A stretch of 64,000 bases of DNA from Peptococcaceae bacterium (GTDB taxonomy: Bacteria; Bacillota; Dehalobacteriia; UBA4068; JAAVYR01). The notes below the pieces were generated by a model that was not told where the DNA came from, made no database searches, and saw nothing but the letters and a program-made list of their open reading frames with translations. A program made the position numbers and the translations under genes. The stretch is from the NCBI GenBank assembly GCA_022791255.1, contig JAAVYR010000018.1:62001-126000 (forward strand), read 5' to 3'. This document shows, piece after piece, positions 17,407 to 24,399 of this stretch; positions within the stretch are counted from its first letter, which is position 1, and each line of letters begins with the position of its first letter.

Positions 17407-17912
17407 ATTTTTTGAAAAAATCATAAGTTGTCAGCGGTACCTTGCCGAGCTGTGCTGCATAGGATAAAACATCTAGCCAGATGAAAGTCTATCATGACGA
17501 TATCTGGGTAAAAGAAAACCGGAGGTGTACCATGGTAGGATGCAGGGTAATGGCAAGGATTGGTGTGGGAAATTGGTTGTTTGCTGCCTTAGGAAAGGGT
17601 TGGCAGGAGCGGCATAGATTGACTGGTTTTCATCGTTTTGTCGGCTATATCAGCAACCATATTTTCCCGAAACCGCTGACAGAGGCAGAAGAGAAGGATT
17701 GTTTGCAAAAATTTGCTGCCGGCGATGAAGAAGCGCGGAATATTCTCATCGAACATAATTTGCGGCTGGTGGCTCACATCTGCAAGAAGTTTGAAAGTAC
17801 AGGACTAGATAAGGATGACTTGATTTCTATTGGTACCATTGGCCTCATCAAAGGTATCAATACCTTCCAGGCTGATAAAGGCACGCGTCTTGCTACCTAT
17901 GCGGCAAGATGT

Positions 17913-17944
17913 ATTGAAAAACCAATCCTACGCTCATGGAAACA
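17913..17944 (+). mobile_element. attL-like site at the sigK break
   Basis: The sigK sequence runs ATTGA, then the shared core AAA (17918-17920), then an arm CAATCCTACG...CTCATGGAAACA ending at 17944. The core ATTG-N-AAA is shared with the second sigK half (24142-24135, minus strand). The arm is an imperfect match to the arm at 24139-24160. I infer that this is a B-arm/P-arm hybrid site for the neighbouring serine recombinase. Confidence 0.8.
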
Positions 17945-17967
17945 AATAGAACCAATTAGAAACAAAT
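17939..17967 (+). repeat. Direct repeat pair next to attL
   Basis: GAAACAAAT occurs at 17939-17947 and again at 17959-17967, a 20-base period. The first copy overlaps the outer end of the attachment arm. The spacing is about two helical turns, so an accessory recombinase site is possible. Confidence 0.35.
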
Positions 17968-18011
17968 GGAGATGAATAGATAGCGAAAGAAAATGCTGTT
18001 TGATTTGTTAC

Positions 18012-19754
18012 TTAATCAGCGGTGTTTTCTTTTTGCATAAATACAGAGATTGTCTTTGTTTCCTGGTCTAGGGAAATATGATGGACAAATGCTTGCGGCA
18101 GCTGACAAAAAACATCTGTCTGTTGTGGGTATTTTCTTTGCCAGAGAAATTCTGGTTGGAATAGGTAGGAGAGCAGTTCTTTTTTTCTTTGGGGCAGAAG
18201 GGATATTTCCTTCGTTTTGCAATGTGTGGTGCAGAGATTTGCTTTGCGATTTTGGGTTTCCAGTTTTTCTTTTTCCTGCTGCATTTGGCTAATGTCTGCA
18301 AGCAATAGCGGTCTGATATTTTCTGCGGCGGTGCGGGCATTAGTGATTTGGTTTTCTATGGCTTGGGATAGTTTCTTGATTTCTTTTTCCAACTGCACTT
18401 TTCTATTATCTTGGGCAGGCTGGGTTAGGCTTTTTTCTGCCTGTTGCAGGAAATGATTAATTTCTTTTTTGTAGTTTGCTATTGGTGTGCAGCAAGCCTT
18501 TGCCAGTGCCAGCCAAATCATTTTATCCAGTTGATTGCCGGGGAGGTTTGGGCTATGAGGACAGGTTGTGTGATTTTGATATTTTTCTTTGCAGACATAA
18601 GCGTATTTTAGGTGGCCTTCTGGTGTGTAGCGGTTGCTATAGGCCCGTACATAGGTGAGTCCTTGGCAAATGGGGCAGCGGACTTTTTCGCTAAGTAAGC
18701 TGTTACTCGTTTGTTTGGGTCTGCGATATTTGTTTTTGTTATCTTGTAAGATAGTTTGGGTGCGTACCCATTCACTTCCCGGGATAATGCCTATATGTTT
18801 GCCGGTGGCGACAATCCAGTTGGCGTTTTCTTGTTTCTGATGGGTTCTTTTATACACGCCTTGTTTTTTACAGTCAGGTTTCTTGGTTTGGTGAGTTTTA
18901 TTATAAGCCAGGAAGCCATTTTTTTCATTGCACTGGCTGCACTGGGATTGGTTGACATAGAGCGAGATGTTTTGTTGTTGTAGGTAAGTAACGCTTGCTG
19001 TATCAGCGATGGCATAGACCGGATTACTTAAAATGCTTTTAATGGCTTTGGTGGTGAAGGGCTGTTTTTTTCGAGTGTAGAACTGGTTTTCTTGCAGATA
19101 GGTTGCAGTTTTAGCAAGGGAGCGGGTTTTGCAGAATGTTTCATAGATTTTATGTACGATGGCGGCTTCCTCTGGGATAATCTTTAAATTATGGGATACG
19201 GATTTTTTCCCATTTGTATAGGTGTAGCAGGGTTCGCTTTTATATCCTAGTGGGGTGTTTCCGCCTAGCCAACGGCCTTCCTTGGCTAGTTCGTAGAGAT
19301 TATCGGTGATGCGTTCGGTGATAATGTCTCGTTCAAACTCTGCAATAGAGGCGAGGAGAGAAAGCATGATTTTTCCTGTTTTTGACTGGGTATCAATATC
19401 ATCTGTGCAGGAGATAAAGGCAATATTTTTTTGTTTTAGGAGCTCGATGAAGTTTAATAAATCAATGGTTTTACGGCTGATACGGTCGATTTTGTAGCAA
19501 AGCACGGCAGATATAGTTCCTGCTGTAATGGCCTCCATCATGCTTTGGTAGGCAGGCCTATCTGCATAGAAGCCGGACAAACCATAATCCTGAAAAACTA
19601 GTAAATCTGCTTCTGTTGCATTTAGTTTGACAAATGCATATTGGCTGCATTTACTGATTTGGTTTTCGATACTTTTTCCTGTCTCTGTTGCTTTGCTTTT
19701 TCTGGCATAGATAGCAATTTTCTTTGAAAGAGGCAGTGTTTGCTTATCACTCAT
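18012..19754 (-). CDS. Large serine recombinase (SpoIVCA-like) of the sigK element
   Basis: The 580-residue site-specific recombinase has an N-terminal resolvase domain with the catalytic serine in IYARKS, then GLSGFYADRP and CYKIDRISRKTIDLL. A recombinase domain (GGNTPLGYKSE) follows, with a zinc ribbon (CPICQG...CKEK) and a coiled coil near residues 440-520. It resembles SpoIVCA, which rearranges sigK. Its 3' end lies 67 bases from attL. A second Cys pair (CSQC) lies in the linker. ATG 19754 follows AAGGAA. It has no integrase or phage neighbours, so the element is minimal. Confidence 0.93.
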   Translation of the reverse strand: MSDKQTLPLSKKIAIYARKSKATETGKSIENQISKCSQYAFVKLNATEADLLVFQDYGLSGFYADRPAYQSMMEAITAGTISAVLCYKIDRISRKTIDLLNFIELLKQKNIAFISCTDDIDTQSKTGKIMLSLLASIAEFERDIITERITDNLYELAKEGRWLGGNTPLGYKSEPCYTYTNGKKSVSHNLKIIPEEAAIVHKIYETFCKTRSLAKTATYLQENQFYTRKKQPFTTKAIKSILSNPVYAIADTASVTYLQQQNISLYVNQSQCSQCNEKNGFLAYNKTHQTKKPDCKKQGVYKRTHQKQENANWIVATGKHIGIIPGSEWVRTQTILQDNKNKYRRPKQTSNSLLSEKVRCPICQGLTYVRAYSNRYTPEGHLKYAYVCKEKYQNHTTCPHSPNLPGNQLDKMIWLALAKACCTPIANYKKEINHFLQQAEKSLTQPAQDNRKVQLEKEIKKLSQAIENQITNARTAAENIRPLLLADISQMQQEKEKLETQNRKANLCTTHCKTKEISLLPQRKKELLSYLFQPEFLWQRKYPQQTDVFCQLPQAFVHHISLDQETKTISVFMQKENTAD

Positions 19755-20059
19755 ACGCTTAATGGTTCCTTTTTGTGCAGTTGTATTTTTGCACATTTAA
19801 CGCTATAGTTCATGGTATGTTTATTTTTATAGTTTATTCTTGCTTGGTTGCTGAGGAAGAATTGCATAAATATGCAGTCTTCCTGAGAGAAAACACAATA
19901 AGAAGTGATATGTAAACTATTTCTTAGCTGAGAAAACAGGGGAAAATGTATATATATGAAAATCATCTAGCCAAATGGACAAAACCATGGTAAAATATAG
20001 AAAGCTGAGTTATGCAAATGTATAACTATAAGAATGTAAGAGAAGAGGAGGATTTTTTA

Positions 20060-21061
20060 ATGAAAAAGAAATTAGCGATTATGACCGCTGCTTTGATGGT
20101 TTGTGCCTGTGCTTTTGTTGGCTGTGGTAACAAAGATGATGGTGGACAAGGTGCTGCCGATAACAATCAAGGGGGCAATACTCAAAACTTGGTAATGGCC
20201 ACTGGTGGGACTACCGGTGCATATTATCCTTATGGCGGTGCAGTTGCGACTGCGCTTTCCGGTGCTGTTGACGGTTTAAATATTAATGTACAAAGTACTG
20301 GTGCTTCTGCTGCTAACATCCGGTTGGTAGCACAAAATGAAGCAGATATTGCCATGGTTCAAAACGATGTAATGGACTATGCTTATAATGGTATTGAACT
20401 ATTCAATGGTGAAAAAATCGAAAATATTGCTGCTATGGGGACTCTCTACACAGAAGTTTGCCAAATCGTTGTAGACCCAGCTTCTGGCATTAATAGTATA
20501 GCAGACTTAAAAGGCAAACGGGTGTCTGTAGGGGACGCTGGTTCTGGTGTAGAGGCAAACTCTCGTCAAATCTTAGGTGCATATGGTATTACTTTTGACG
20601 ATATTACCGTACAAAACTTAGGTTTTGGAGACTCTGCCAATGCAATGAAAGATAAGAAAATCGACGCTTTTTTTGTAACTGCTGGCACACCTACTACTGC
20701 TGTTATGGAACTTGCTAGCACTAATCCGATTAAAATTCTTTCCATTGATGACGAACATATGAAGGCTTTATGTGAACAATATCCATACTACAGCGAATAT
20801 ACCATTGCTTCTGATGTATACAGCGGTATGGATGGAGATGTAAAAACCTTGGCTGTAAAAGCTGCCTTCATCGTAAATCCTGATTTAGATGAAGAATTGG
20901 TTTATAACATGACCAAAGCGTTGTTTGAACAAAAAGACGCTATTACCCAAGGGAACAGCAAAGGTGCAGAATTAGATGTGAATACTGCTGTACAGAATGT
21001 TTCTATTCCATTCCACCCTGGTGCTGTTAAATATTACAAAGAAGTTGGTGTAATGGAATAA
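20060..21061 (+). CDS. TAXI-family TRAP transporter solute-binding lipoprotein
   Basis: The 333-residue protein has a lipoprotein signal peptide with FVGC as lipobox (Cys about residue 20), then an acidic Gly/Asn spacer. The mature part has the TAXI signature GTTGAYYPYGGA. It would be anchored outside the membrane and deliver ligand, often a dicarboxylate or amino acid such as glutamate, to the permease downstream. GAGGAGG precedes ATG 20060. It is the first gene of a three-gene operon enclosed between the two sigK halves. Confidence 0.93.
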   Translation: MKKKLAIMTAALMVCACAFVGCGNKDDGGQGAADNNQGGNTQNLVMATGGTTGAYYPYGGAVATALSGAVDGLNINVQSTGASAANIRLVAQNEADIAMVQNDVMDYAYNGIELFNGEKIENIAAMGTLYTEVCQIVVDPASGINSIADLKGKRVSVGDAGSGVEANSRQILGAYGITFDDITVQNLGFGDSANAMKDKKIDAFFVTAGTPTTAVMELASTNPIKILSIDDEHMKALCEQYPYYSEYTIASDVYSGMDGDVKTLAVKAAFIVNPDLDEELVYNMTKALFEQKDAITQGNSKGAELDVNTAVQNVSIPFHPGAVKYYKEVGVME

Positions 21062-21102
21062 TCTCCGAACAGAAACCTAAGGGAAAGTAGTGGAGACTAT
21101 TG

Positions 21103-21717
21103 ATGATTTGCCAAAGGCAAAAACAAAAAGAACAAAAAAAAGAACAAAAAAAAGAACAAAAACAAACTGCAAGAAAATGTCAAACTGCAATCATACTTAG
21201 TATGATTGCAGTCTGCATTTTACTGTTTTTTGTATTTTTTATACATCAGGACCAATATCTGATTTTAGAAAACGGAGAGACTGATGAAGTAATCTATGCT
21301 ACTCTTGCAGCAGATGGCTTTGAGTTTGCCGTGTCCTTTATCCATTCTGTTAATAAAAGCGATGTCATCGAGGGCTATCGGATAGAAGAAGGAAATATTT
21401 TTGCTGAGTGGTGCAAGTATAGTTCCTTTGGCGCTGGTATGCCGACAGAACTGGGTGATGGTGAAATTCTTACCTATGAAGATGGGAAAATGATGATTTC
21501 CCATATGCACCGAGGGGTGCCCAATCTTTCGTATATTGTCGGTACGGTTTACGACCATTATTTGTATATCGGGGATGAAAAAATCAATCTTTGTGACTTA
21601 ACCCCCCGCAATACGAAAGTGAGATTTTTAGTAGAAAAGAAGTATCATATTGGCTTTCCTTGTAAGGAAGAGACAGTAGGGATATCAATAATAAAGACAG
21701 AAACATCTGAAAAATAG
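21103..21717 (+). CDS. DUF1850 membrane protein of a TAXI-TRAP operon
   Basis: The 204-residue protein has one membrane segment (about residues 30-50) and an extracytoplasmic DUF1850 domain (FAVSFIHSVNKSDVIEGY, then FGAGMPTE). Such proteins stand between receptor and permease in TAXI-TRAP operons; their role is not established. The N-terminus before the membrane segment contains a KEQK repeat coded by an A-rich 12-base tandem repeat (about 21117-21165). The ATG is at 21103 with GTGGAG upstream. Confidence 0.85.
   Translation: MICQRQKQKEQKKEQKKEQKQTARKCQTAIILSMIAVCILLFFVFFIHQDQYLILENGETDEVIYATLAADGFEFAVSFIHSVNKSDVIEGYRIEEGNIFAEWCKYSSFGAGMPTELGDGEILTYEDGKMMISHMHRGVPNLSYIVGTVYDHYLYIGDEKINLCDLTPRNTKVRFLVEKKYHIGFPCKEETVGISIIKTETSEK
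21117..21165 (+). repeat. A-rich 12-base tandem repeat inside the DUF1850 gene
   Basis: The unit AGAACAAAAAAA recurs about three times with slightly varied ends. It codes for KEQK. The eight-base A tracts could slip during replication. Confidence 0.7.
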
Positions 21718-21745
21718 AGAAATGTGAGGTGGTCGATGGGTGGTA

Positions 21746-23743
21746 ATGAAAGATAAATTTTTGAAGAAAAAAAATACAGCAGTTCTTGCTGAACACCCTA
21801 GCGATGTAAGCCTGAACCAGGAAGATGTAGTAGATGCCGATAAAATCTTAGCAGAGGTGGACAGGGAGTCGAATACCCGTCAATTTACCGGTGTGAGACG
21901 GAAAATGATCCGGTATTCTTTAATTGGTTTTTCTCTCTATGCTTTGTGGATGAATACTTTTTCCACTTTGCCGGAGCAAATTCGACGGGCGTCTTTTGTG
22001 GGCATTATTATATTTATTGCTTTTATGCTCTACCCTGCAAAGAAGAACGGCACAGAAAAAATCAACCATGTCCCTTGGTATGACTGGATACTTGCCATTG
22101 TTGGTGCTGGTTCCTTCTTTTATATGGTTTTTAATTTTTCCAGTATTGCTTCTCGTGCAGGGGCCTTTACCCAGTTGGATATTATCATTGGCGGCATTGC
22201 CATTTTGGTATTAATGGAAATTTGTCGGCGTGTATTAGGACTCCCTATTTTGGTGTTGGTATGCGGGTTTATCCTGTATGCGTACTTTGGTAATTATATT
22301 TCTGGCAGTTTTGGCCATAGAGGGTTTTCCTTACAGCGCATTATTACCCATTTATTTTACACCACAGAAGGGGTTATCGGTACGCCGCTGGGGGTTTGTT
22401 CTACCTTTATCGTGCTGTTTATTTTGTTTGGTTCTTTCTTAGAAAAAACCGGTGTGGGACAGTTCTTCATTGATATTGCCAATTCTATTGCCGGTTCTGC
22501 TGTAGGGGGCCCGGCAAAAGTTGCAGTTATTGCCAGCGCTTTGCAGGGGACTATCTCAGGCAGCTCTGTTGCAAATACGGTTGGTTCTGGTAGCTTTACT
22601 ATCCCTATGATGAAGAAAGCCGGTTATCGTCCGGAATTTGCAGCGGCGGTAGAAGCGGTAGCCTCTACCGGGGGACAGATTATGCCGCCCATTATGGGGG
22701 CCGCTGCTTTCCTCATGGCAGAGATTACCAATATTTCCTATGCAACGATTATTACGGCAGCTATCGTTCCAGCGTTATTGTATTTTGCCGGTGTGTGGCT
22801 GATGATCCACTACGAAGCAAAAAAACTGGGCTTAAAAGGGATGGATAAAAAAGATATTCCTAATTTCTTTGCATTGGTAAAGCGGAATGGGTATTTGATT
22901 TTACCTTTGATTGTGCTGGTATATCTCCTGACTTCCGGGGCGACGCCATCTCGGTCGGCTACCTTTGCTATTTTGACTGCCATCATTGTCAGCTTTTTCC
23001 GTAAAGAAACAAGACTAACTTGGACAACCTTAGGCGACGCCTTAGAAAATGGGGCTAGAAGCACCTTAGGCGTGGGGCTTGCTTGTTCCATTGCTGGGAT
23101 TATTGTAGGCATTGTGACGCTGACGGGGATTGGCCTGAAACTGGCGGCAAATTTACTGGCTATGTCTGGTGGCATTCCGCTCCTTGCTCTATTCTTTACC
23201 ATGCTTGCTTCTATTGTGCTAGGCATGGGTATGCCGACTACAGCAAACTATGTTATCATGGCGACTATCACGGCACCTATCGTGGTGCAGTTAGGTGTGC
23301 CGGTGTTGGCTGCACATATGTTTGTATTCTATTTTGGTATTGTAGCGGATATTACGCCGCCGGTAGCACTGGCCGCCTATGCGGGGTCTGCCATTGCGAA
23401 ATCTAATCCGTTCCGTACGGGATGTACGGCGTTGAAGCTGGCTATCACAGCCTTCATCGTGCCTTATATTTTTGCCATGAACCCATCTCTCTTAATGATT
23501 GATACCCAGTGGTATGAAGTGATTTGGATTATGTGTACGGCTTTAATCGGTATGGTGGGGATTTCTAGTGGTATGGAAGGCTATATGCAGATATTGATGC
23601 GTTGGTGGGAACGGGTGATTTGTGTTGGTGCCGGACTCATGTTGATTATCCCAGAAGGCTTCACCGATATCATTGGGGTTGCGCTCATCCTGGGCATTGT
23701 CATTCTGCAGAAATATAGATTAAAGCATTTAGAGTTGGATTAG
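21746..23743 (+). CDS. TRAP transporter fused permease (4TM/12TM, TAXI type)
   Basis: The 665-residue membrane protein fuses the small DctQ-like and the large DctM-like subunits. The large part has the family motifs GSASAAN-like SGSSVANTVGSGSFTIPMM, STGGQIMPPIMGAAAF and GMGMPTTANYVI. About 16 hydrophobic segments are seen. It would use a sodium or proton gradient to import the solute bound by the TAXI lipoprotein. It ends 36 bases from the oppositely oriented sigK C-terminal part. Confidence 0.93.
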   Translation: MKDKFLKKKNTAVLAEHPSDVSLNQEDVVDADKILAEVDRESNTRQFTGVRRKMIRYSLIGFSLYALWMNTFSTLPEQIRRASFVGIIIFIAFMLYPAKKNGTEKINHVPWYDWILAIVGAGSFFYMVFNFSSIASRAGAFTQLDIIIGGIAILVLMEICRRVLGLPILVLVCGFILYAYFGNYISGSFGHRGFSLQRIITHLFYTTEGVIGTPLGVCSTFIVLFILFGSFLEKTGVGQFFIDIANSIAGSAVGGPAKVAVIASALQGTISGSSVANTVGSGSFTIPMMKKAGYRPEFAAAVEAVASTGGQIMPPIMGAAAFLMAEITNISYATIITAAIVPALLYFAGVWLMIHYEAKKLGLKGMDKKDIPNFFALVKRNGYLILPLIVLVYLLTSGATPSRSATFAILTAIIVSFFRKETRLTWTTLGDALENGARSTLGVGLACSIAGIIVGIVTLTGIGLKLAANLLAMSGGIPLLALFFTMLASIVLGMGMPTTANYVIMATITAPIVVQLGVPVLAAHMFVFYFGIVADITPPVALAAYAGSAIAKSNPFRTGCTALKLAITAFIVPYIFAMNPSLLMIDTQWYEVIWIMCTALIGMVGISSGMEGYMQILMRWWERVICVGAGLMLIIPEGFTDIIGVALILGIVILQKYRLKHLELD

Positions 23744-23779
23744 ATTTTGATGTTTGTTTTGATGTTTGTATAGAAGGGA

Positions 23780-24169
23780 TTAGCGTTCCATTACTTTTAA
23801 TAGTTTTTGTACAGCTCTTTTTTCAATACGAGAGACATAAGACCGGGAGATGCCTAACTCTTTGGCAATTTCCCGCTGGGTGCGTTTTTCTTGGTTTTTT
23901 AAACCATAACGGTAAAGCAGTACAAATTGTTCTTCCTGGCTAAGTAAGGTCATTTTACTTAAAAGGTATGCTTGTTCCTCGCTGGCTTCTAAGGACTCGA
24001 TGATTTCATTGCCGTCAGAACCCAGTAAATCTAAAAGGGTGACCTCGTTTCCTTCTTTATCCACACCTACTGGGTCTTGCAGATAGACATCGTTGCGGTT
24101 GTTTTTCGTTGACCGTAAGTACATGAGTATTTCATTTGCAATCCTGCTCTCATGGAAACATAAGCGCAA
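23780..24169 (-). pseudogene. sigK: sigK, C-terminal part, inverted relative to the N-terminal part
   Basis: On the minus strand an open frame encodes sigma-K from NEILMYLRS through region 4, with TQREIAKELGISRSYVSRI ending in a normal stop. The real coding part begins at 24136; bases 24137-24169 are element arm and core. Joining codon GAA (17916-17918) to AAT (24136-24134) restores RCIENEILMYLRS in frame and gives a 247-residue protein, close to the usual size. The part lacks its own start and should be silent until recombination. Its strand is opposite to the first half. Confidence 0.93.
24133..24160 (-). mobile_element. attR-like site at the second sigK part
   Basis: Read on the minus strand: arm TGTTTCCATGAGAGCAGGATTG (24160-24139), then C, then the core AAA (24137-24135), then sigK coding sequence. 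The arm is the near reverse complement of the arm at attL (19 of the 22 bases pair). The site is therefore oriented opposite to attL. Confidence 0.8.
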
Positions 24170-24189: not shown

Positions 24190-24399
24190 CTAATTGTTTT
24201 GGCTGATTTCCTGTCGTGTAGTATGAAAAATCTCATGGGCAAGTGCTGTGATACCCTCCTCTTCCCACTGGATCCAGAGGAGTCTTAAGACCTCTTGGAT
24301 GTAATAGCGTTGCATTTGATAGAGGATTTCTGACTGTTCCTGTTCTGGGTAGATTAGCGCTATGGTGTAATCTGTTAAATCAATTTTTGCTTTCATCAT
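24190..24399 (-). CDS. Small acidic protein beside attR (function unknown)
   Basis: The 69-residue protein (begins MMKAKIDLTDYTIALIYPEQ) has no membrane segment or motif that I recognise. AAAGAGGTC precedes the ATG pair. It lies just outside the predicted invertible segment, on the P-arm side, pointing toward attR. In Clostridioides difficile a small element-encoded protein is the directionality factor for sigK recombination. Position and size make this a candidate for the same job; the sequence itself does not show it. Confidence 0.6.
   Translation of the reverse strand: MMKAKIDLTDYTIALIYPEQEQSEILYQMQRYYIQEVLRLLWIQWEEEGITALAHEIFHTTRQEISQNN

Follow-up and report, generated by a model that had tools for sequence, protein, structure and literature searches.

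The excision of skin elements from sigK is a textbook irreversible developmental DNA rearrangement in bacteria, usually explained by the fact that the mother cell is terminal. The described skins (SpoIVCA/Skr in B. subtilis, CD1231/CD1234 in C. difficile, and the sigK prophages of C. tetani and C. perfringens) use a large serine recombinase of the same kind as the one encoded at the locus analysed here. In those skins, as here, sigK is broken at the region 2 codons RCIEN and bordered by hybrid attL and attR sites. A need for a small directionality factor, as in the B. subtilis and C. difficile skins, is expected for our locus. In C. difficile, CD1231 is sufficient for attB x attP recombination, inverting plasmid DNA with an inverted attP in E. 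coli, and requires CD1234 (72 aa) for attL x attR recombination (PMC5025042). Skr, of 64 aa, is required for the B. subtilis skin (PMC6957869). In phage-type serine recombinase systems, attP has symmetric arms around a central dinucleotide, and the predicted cut in the gin element falls on an AA dinucleotide (PMC5595907).

The window, a stretch of 64,000 nucleotides from an uncultured spore-forming bacterium, carries sigK, the gene for the final switch protein of sporulation, in two halves that are opposite in direction, the C half lying within a predicted invertible segment (Table 1). Together, the halves cover the SigK model TIGR02846 with neither gap nor overlap, and the split is therefore exact: sigK is interrupted inside its coding sequence at one codon, and both parts are otherwise intact. 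The N half was also matched by tblastn to the intact sigK of a congener (G001). Joining the codons GAA and AAT at the junction restores RCIENEIL in frame within a 247-aa protein. These results reproduce the preliminary description of two halves making a complete sigma-K, with one correction, as the span it had assigned to sigK ran to 24169, while the coding sequence ends at 24136 and positions 24137-24169 are the element-side attachment arm. A search for a second or intact sigK elsewhere in the genome (1.56 Mb, 24 contigs, 97% complete) found none. The best remaining match, a full-length sigma factor, has 44% identity, the same level as a second, SigE-like paralogue in relatives, and was rejected as an intact sigK. 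SpoIIID is present in the genome, scoring above the cut-off. Upstream of the N half is a promoter-like site, which we take to be of the sigma-K/sigma-E type from its match to the consensus known from B. subtilis; the same pattern is found at the same place in G001 and is one base off in a second congener (G002). A stretch of about 30 bp 5' of sigK (17476-17508, CATCTAGCCAGATGAAAGTCTATCATG) is missing from both congeners and is similar to a conserved sequence, ATCTAGCCAAATGGACAAAACCATGG, before the TAXI gene near 19968.

Table 1. Coordinates of features at the split sigK locus, given as positions within the window
Feature	Position	Strand	Description
Promoter-like site, AC-N17-CATAGGATA	17439-17466	+	Predicted; sigma-K/sigma-E type; upstream of sigK N half
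sigK N half	17532-17918	+	Codons 1-129; N-terminal extension and sigma region 2; TIGR02846 positions 15-110
Left hybrid attachment site	17895-17944	+	sigK-side arm, central AA 17919-17920, element-side arm ending CTCATGGAAACA
Predicted invertible segment	17919-24136		6,216 bp between equivalent cut positions
Large serine recombinase	18012-19796	-	594 aa; convergent with N half; Pfam Resolvase, Recombinase, Zn_ribbon_recom
Cargo: TAXI-family TRAP transporter solute-binding protein	20012-21061	+	TIGR02122
Cargo: DUF1850 protein	21100-21717	+	PF08905
Cargo: TRAP transporter fused permease	21740-23743	+	TIGR02123
sigK C half	23780-24136	-	Codons 130-247 and stop; sigma region 4; TIGR02846 positions 111-225
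Right hybrid attachment site	24111-24160	-	sigK-side arm, central TT (plus strand) 24135-24136, element-side arm 24137-24160
Orphan 69-aa ORF	24190-24399	-	Candidate directionality factor by place and size; AAAGAGG before ATG

At the left break, the DNA 3' of the N half reads AAAAACCAATCC-TACG-CTCATGGAAACA, and at the right break the plus strand past the C half reads AATCC-TGCT-CTCATGGAAACA. Within the window, the 12-bp arm is present at these two breaks only, in the same direction on the plus strand. The ATTG-N-AAA core noted earlier at both breaks, in inverted orientation, was confirmed, and since the plus strand has a central AA in the left site and a central TT in the right one, the two sites are inverted. 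When the element-side arms, which lie 6.2 kb apart, are joined, they form a 50-bp attP, TGTTTCCATGAGAGCAGGATTGCAAAACCAATCCTACGCTCATGGAAACA, in which 20 of 25 positions are paired around the central AA, a symmetry reached by none of 200,000 shuffles; the joined sigK-side arms form an attB inside intact sigK. As the arms give both an attB and a palindromic attP, the window has two complementary hybrid sites, attL and attR. These sites share one arm only and are not the near-identical inverted repeats of DNA invertons. The element-side arm had no match in viral contigs. It is conserved in G002 while the DNA beyond it diverges, a sign of a site in use.

In-script inversion of the 6,216 bp restored the 247-codon sigK exactly and left attP near 24.1 kb. 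In contrast, deletion of the segment, with the sites treated as direct repeats, gave a 152-aa dead-end product with unrelated residues at its end. Both outcomes bear out the earlier proposal that a 6.2-kb flip would rebuild the gene, and they support a site polarity that would permit rebuilding solely by inversion. Excision-type repair would be unable to restore sigK because the halves point in opposite directions.

The preliminary description had also placed a SpoIVCA-like serine recombinase between the halves, and the encoded protein indeed has resolvase, recombinase and zinc-ribbon domains and falls in a sigK-skin clade. Searching 84,980 species genomes with a three-sequence alignment returned nine relatives. 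All six with at least 38% identity (G002, an AS24 MAG, UBA5757, Ruminiclostridium sufflavum and two Oscillospiraceae MAGs) are in sigK loci, with the recombinase adjoining at least the N half; for the three at 27% identity, no sigK was present in the fetched stretch. In a maximum-likelihood tree, the recombinases of the window and G002 pair with support of 100/100, and next join that of the co-oriented UBA5757 skin (99/98). A group of eight rows follows (97/96), all sigK skins except G181, whose fetched 16 kb showed no sigK. The recombinase gene adjoins the N half and converges with it, as in three co-oriented skins (L064-L066), and the left end of the element is therefore an ordinary skin end, and the right end is the one that has been turned. 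The recombinase has a dN/dS of 0.18. Its catalytic domain has no lineage-unique change, while its DNA-binding and coiled-coil parts do have such changes. Upstream of the gene, we found no sigma-K pattern and no clear match to a mother-cell promoter.

The orientation of split sigK genes was surveyed in 230 genomes of the phylum that were at least 95% complete, 180 of which had a match to the SigK C half; listed matches with short open frames were searched again for both halves. Besides the window, and counting loci from the searches among relatives and recombinases, at least 17 split sigK genes had both halves on one contig, and all were co-oriented among the matches listed (G003, G048, G063, G079, G093, G110, G131, G186, G190, G225, G259, G267, G349, G369 and loci L064, L065 and L066). 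Among these matches, the window is the sole inverted split sigK, and the layout is known from one genome; because 17 of 17 others listed are co-oriented, we consider the inverted layout derived and so far unique. The earlier remark that known skins are co-oriented extends to the split sigK genes in this set. Its companion claim, that no inversion-type sigK switch had been described, agrees with the open papers found, which describe excision systems and an artificial C. difficile plasmid test only; the subscription literature may contain an earlier report. Judged from its sequence, the layout is a skin by ancestry and parts and an inverton by geometry. A skin-group large serine recombinase lies in the intervening DNA and the hybrid sites yield an attB in sigK and a symmetric attP, but the halves are not co-oriented for rebuilding by circle excision, and inverted recombination sites (AA and TT on the plus strand) flank the segment.

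Other arrangements at sigK also came to light. Two genomes of one genus, 6.4-6.8 Mb in size (G064, loci L101, L102 and L105, C1:1541001-1630000; G256, locus L103, C3:317001-332000), have one intact sigK plus several additional sigK 3' copies that start near codon 80 and lie on a single strand over ~60-90 kb; G045 has one such copy. Such copies perhaps belong to elements that carry a sigK 3' end with them and accumulate at sigK. An IMG/VR sequence (L094) has sigK interrupted at a different point, near codon 160, and a recombinase of another type. In G190, an extra sigK N fragment lies next to yqeG (L104; C36:117001-132000).

Two congeners illuminate the history of the locus. G001 has an intact sigK, 87% identical, with yqeG close behind, and between the two there is no recombinase, TRAP gene or 69-aa ORF. 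G001 is therefore an empty site. G002 (CAMNVD010000080.1) shares with the window the N half and left site as well as the recombinase and the TAXI/DUF1850/TRAP cargo, all in unchanged order. Its contig ends within the TRAP gene, and its C half was not in the assembly by protein or DNA searches. An apparent stop in the G002 recombinase was rejected, as it lies upstream of the start codon and the gene is intact. A single event would suffice for the derived layout, namely, the reversal of a stretch that has the 69-aa ORF at one end and the sigK stop at the other, with the attachment site in between. A 10-bp inverted repeat is found at the two borders of this stretch (46 of 5,000 shuffles had one as long). 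Alternatively, an excised circle may have been reinserted backwards just 3' of the sigK stop, with identical breakpoints.

Both halves of sigK have been well kept. For residues 37-129 of the N half, dN against G001 is 0.031 and dS 1.18; the C half has 97% protein identity to G001 sigK, with synonymous sites saturated; and over residues 59-129 the window and G002 have the same protein sequence at a dS of about 1. These comparisons indicate strong purifying selection on both halves. As the element is common to the window genome and G002, the interrupted sigK has apparently been kept functional for as long as the two have been apart. Apparently, then, a sigK interrupted for that long, which speaks to the interruption and not to the age of the inverted layout, implies regular rebuilding.

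Adjoining the right attachment site but outside the invertible segment is the orphan 69-aa ORF, which is absent from G001. We infer from its place and size that it is the best candidate for the directionality factor. It had no homologues in viral contigs or in the order, and no sigma-K-pattern promoter matched upstream of it. Small ORFs starting MAFKAV[IL]H occur in co-oriented sigK skins (L064:9760-10065, L065:7967-8140, L066:5328-5501), and that in L064 overlaps the recombinase start, as Skr does in B. subtilis; these ORFs are likely a directionality-factor family. Resemblance of the 69-aa ORF to them did not reach significance, with 7-12% of shuffles scoring as well (L065/L066). A 71-aa ORF overlapping the recombinase start in the window (19751-19966) was also rejected as an Skr counterpart, as it is not conserved in G002. 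Between congeners, the TAXI-type TRAP operon (20012-23743) is 93-94% identical, compared to 66% for the recombinase.

We propose that the locus is probably a skin-type sigK element whose 3' part and attachment site have been turned, such that sigma-K would be rebuilt by inversion and not by excision. We also lean toward the fuller reading that it forms a reversible, loss-proof sigma factor switch, turned ON by attL x attR recombination with a mother-cell factor and OFF by the recombinase alone. In the mother cell, the recombinase and a small directionality factor, putatively the 69-aa protein, would recombine the hybrid sites. The flip would turn the recombinase gene and the TRAP cargo, leaving intact sigK upstream, behind its own promoter-like site, and attP downstream. 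Where the factor is absent, the recombinase by itself would recombine attB with attP and flip the segment back; the switch would therefore be self-resetting, correcting itself in dividing cells. No circle would arise through which the element might be lost, and the forespore would retain the OFF form.

The layout could also be a genuine but recent accident, in which a short inversion, with the 69-aa ORF and the sigK stop at its two ends, arose within an ordinary excisable skin, leaving sigma-K lost or poorly made. Its uniqueness among 18 oriented cases, within the matches listed, and the 10-bp inverted repeat at the borders are consistent with such an event, as is a recombinase that is perhaps changing faster than that of G002 outside the catalytic domain, a difference sensitive to the choice of outgroup (chi-square 7.2 or 0.75). 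However, the two sigK halves and the recombinase gene have open, conserved reading frames, each attachment site is complete, and the recombination chemistry is indifferent to site orientation, so that inversion is as available to the enzyme as excision. We therefore regard loss of function through such an accident as unlikely. That the layout is otherwise unknown and comes from one draft genome of 24 contigs raises the concern that an ordinary co-oriented skin was joined backwards in assembly between 23.75 and 24.5 kb. A false inversion of this kind needs long inverted repeats at its borders, yet the longest found is 10 bp, the 12-bp arms run in the same direction on the plus strand, and the stretch lies inside a 250-kb contig, making an assembly error quite improbable.

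If the inversion is real and active, it could still serve a different purpose, namely, a stochastic phase switch in growing cells that divides a population into sporulation-able and sporulation-unable subpopulations with no mother-cell event. Inversion, unlike excision, is heritable and reversible, the recombinase gene has no clear mother-cell promoter match before it, and the C. difficile recombinase is constitutive (PMC5025042). Nevertheless, large serine recombinases are directional and, in the absence of their factor, drive recombination of attB with attP, which would keep dividing cells in the OFF state, and every tested gene rearrangement of this type is linked to the mother cell (PMC5595907, PMC6957869). 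A phase switch of this type is thus very improbable, and we retain inversion in the mother cell as the preferred reading.

If this reading is true, DNA loss is unnecessary for a sigK switch, and site polarity can turn in evolution. A cell that switched prematurely would be repaired and would keep its element. Whether skins are kept for sigma-K timing or merely tolerated would also become testable, because the reaction that the element carries out could not remove it here.

Compared with the skins of B. subtilis, C. difficile, C. tetani and C. perfringens, the locus differs in that its halves are opposite, sigK would return by inversion without DNA loss, and the cargo is a TRAP transporter operon. 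The closest skins with both halves are those of UBA5757 (L063/G003) and Ruminiclostridium sufflavum (L064), whose recombinases are 41-43% identical to that of the window. Like the window, L064 has its recombinase convergent with the N half, but in both skins the sigK halves point the same way. The published inversion by a skin recombinase, that of C. difficile, is attB x attP, whereas the one proposed here would use hybrid sites and a factor. As proposed here, gin in gerE and SP-beta in spsM rebuild a sporulation gene through a serine recombinase and a factor, but they do so by excision, and their target genes differ. DNA invertons (Hin/Gin-type and intragenic) alter gene expression by a flip between inverted sites, as we propose for the window. 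Unlike invertons, the window pairs two dissimilar hybrid sites, attL and attR, that belong to a phage-type integrase, and direction control is therefore expected; the gene concerned encodes a sporulation sigma factor used in a terminal cell.
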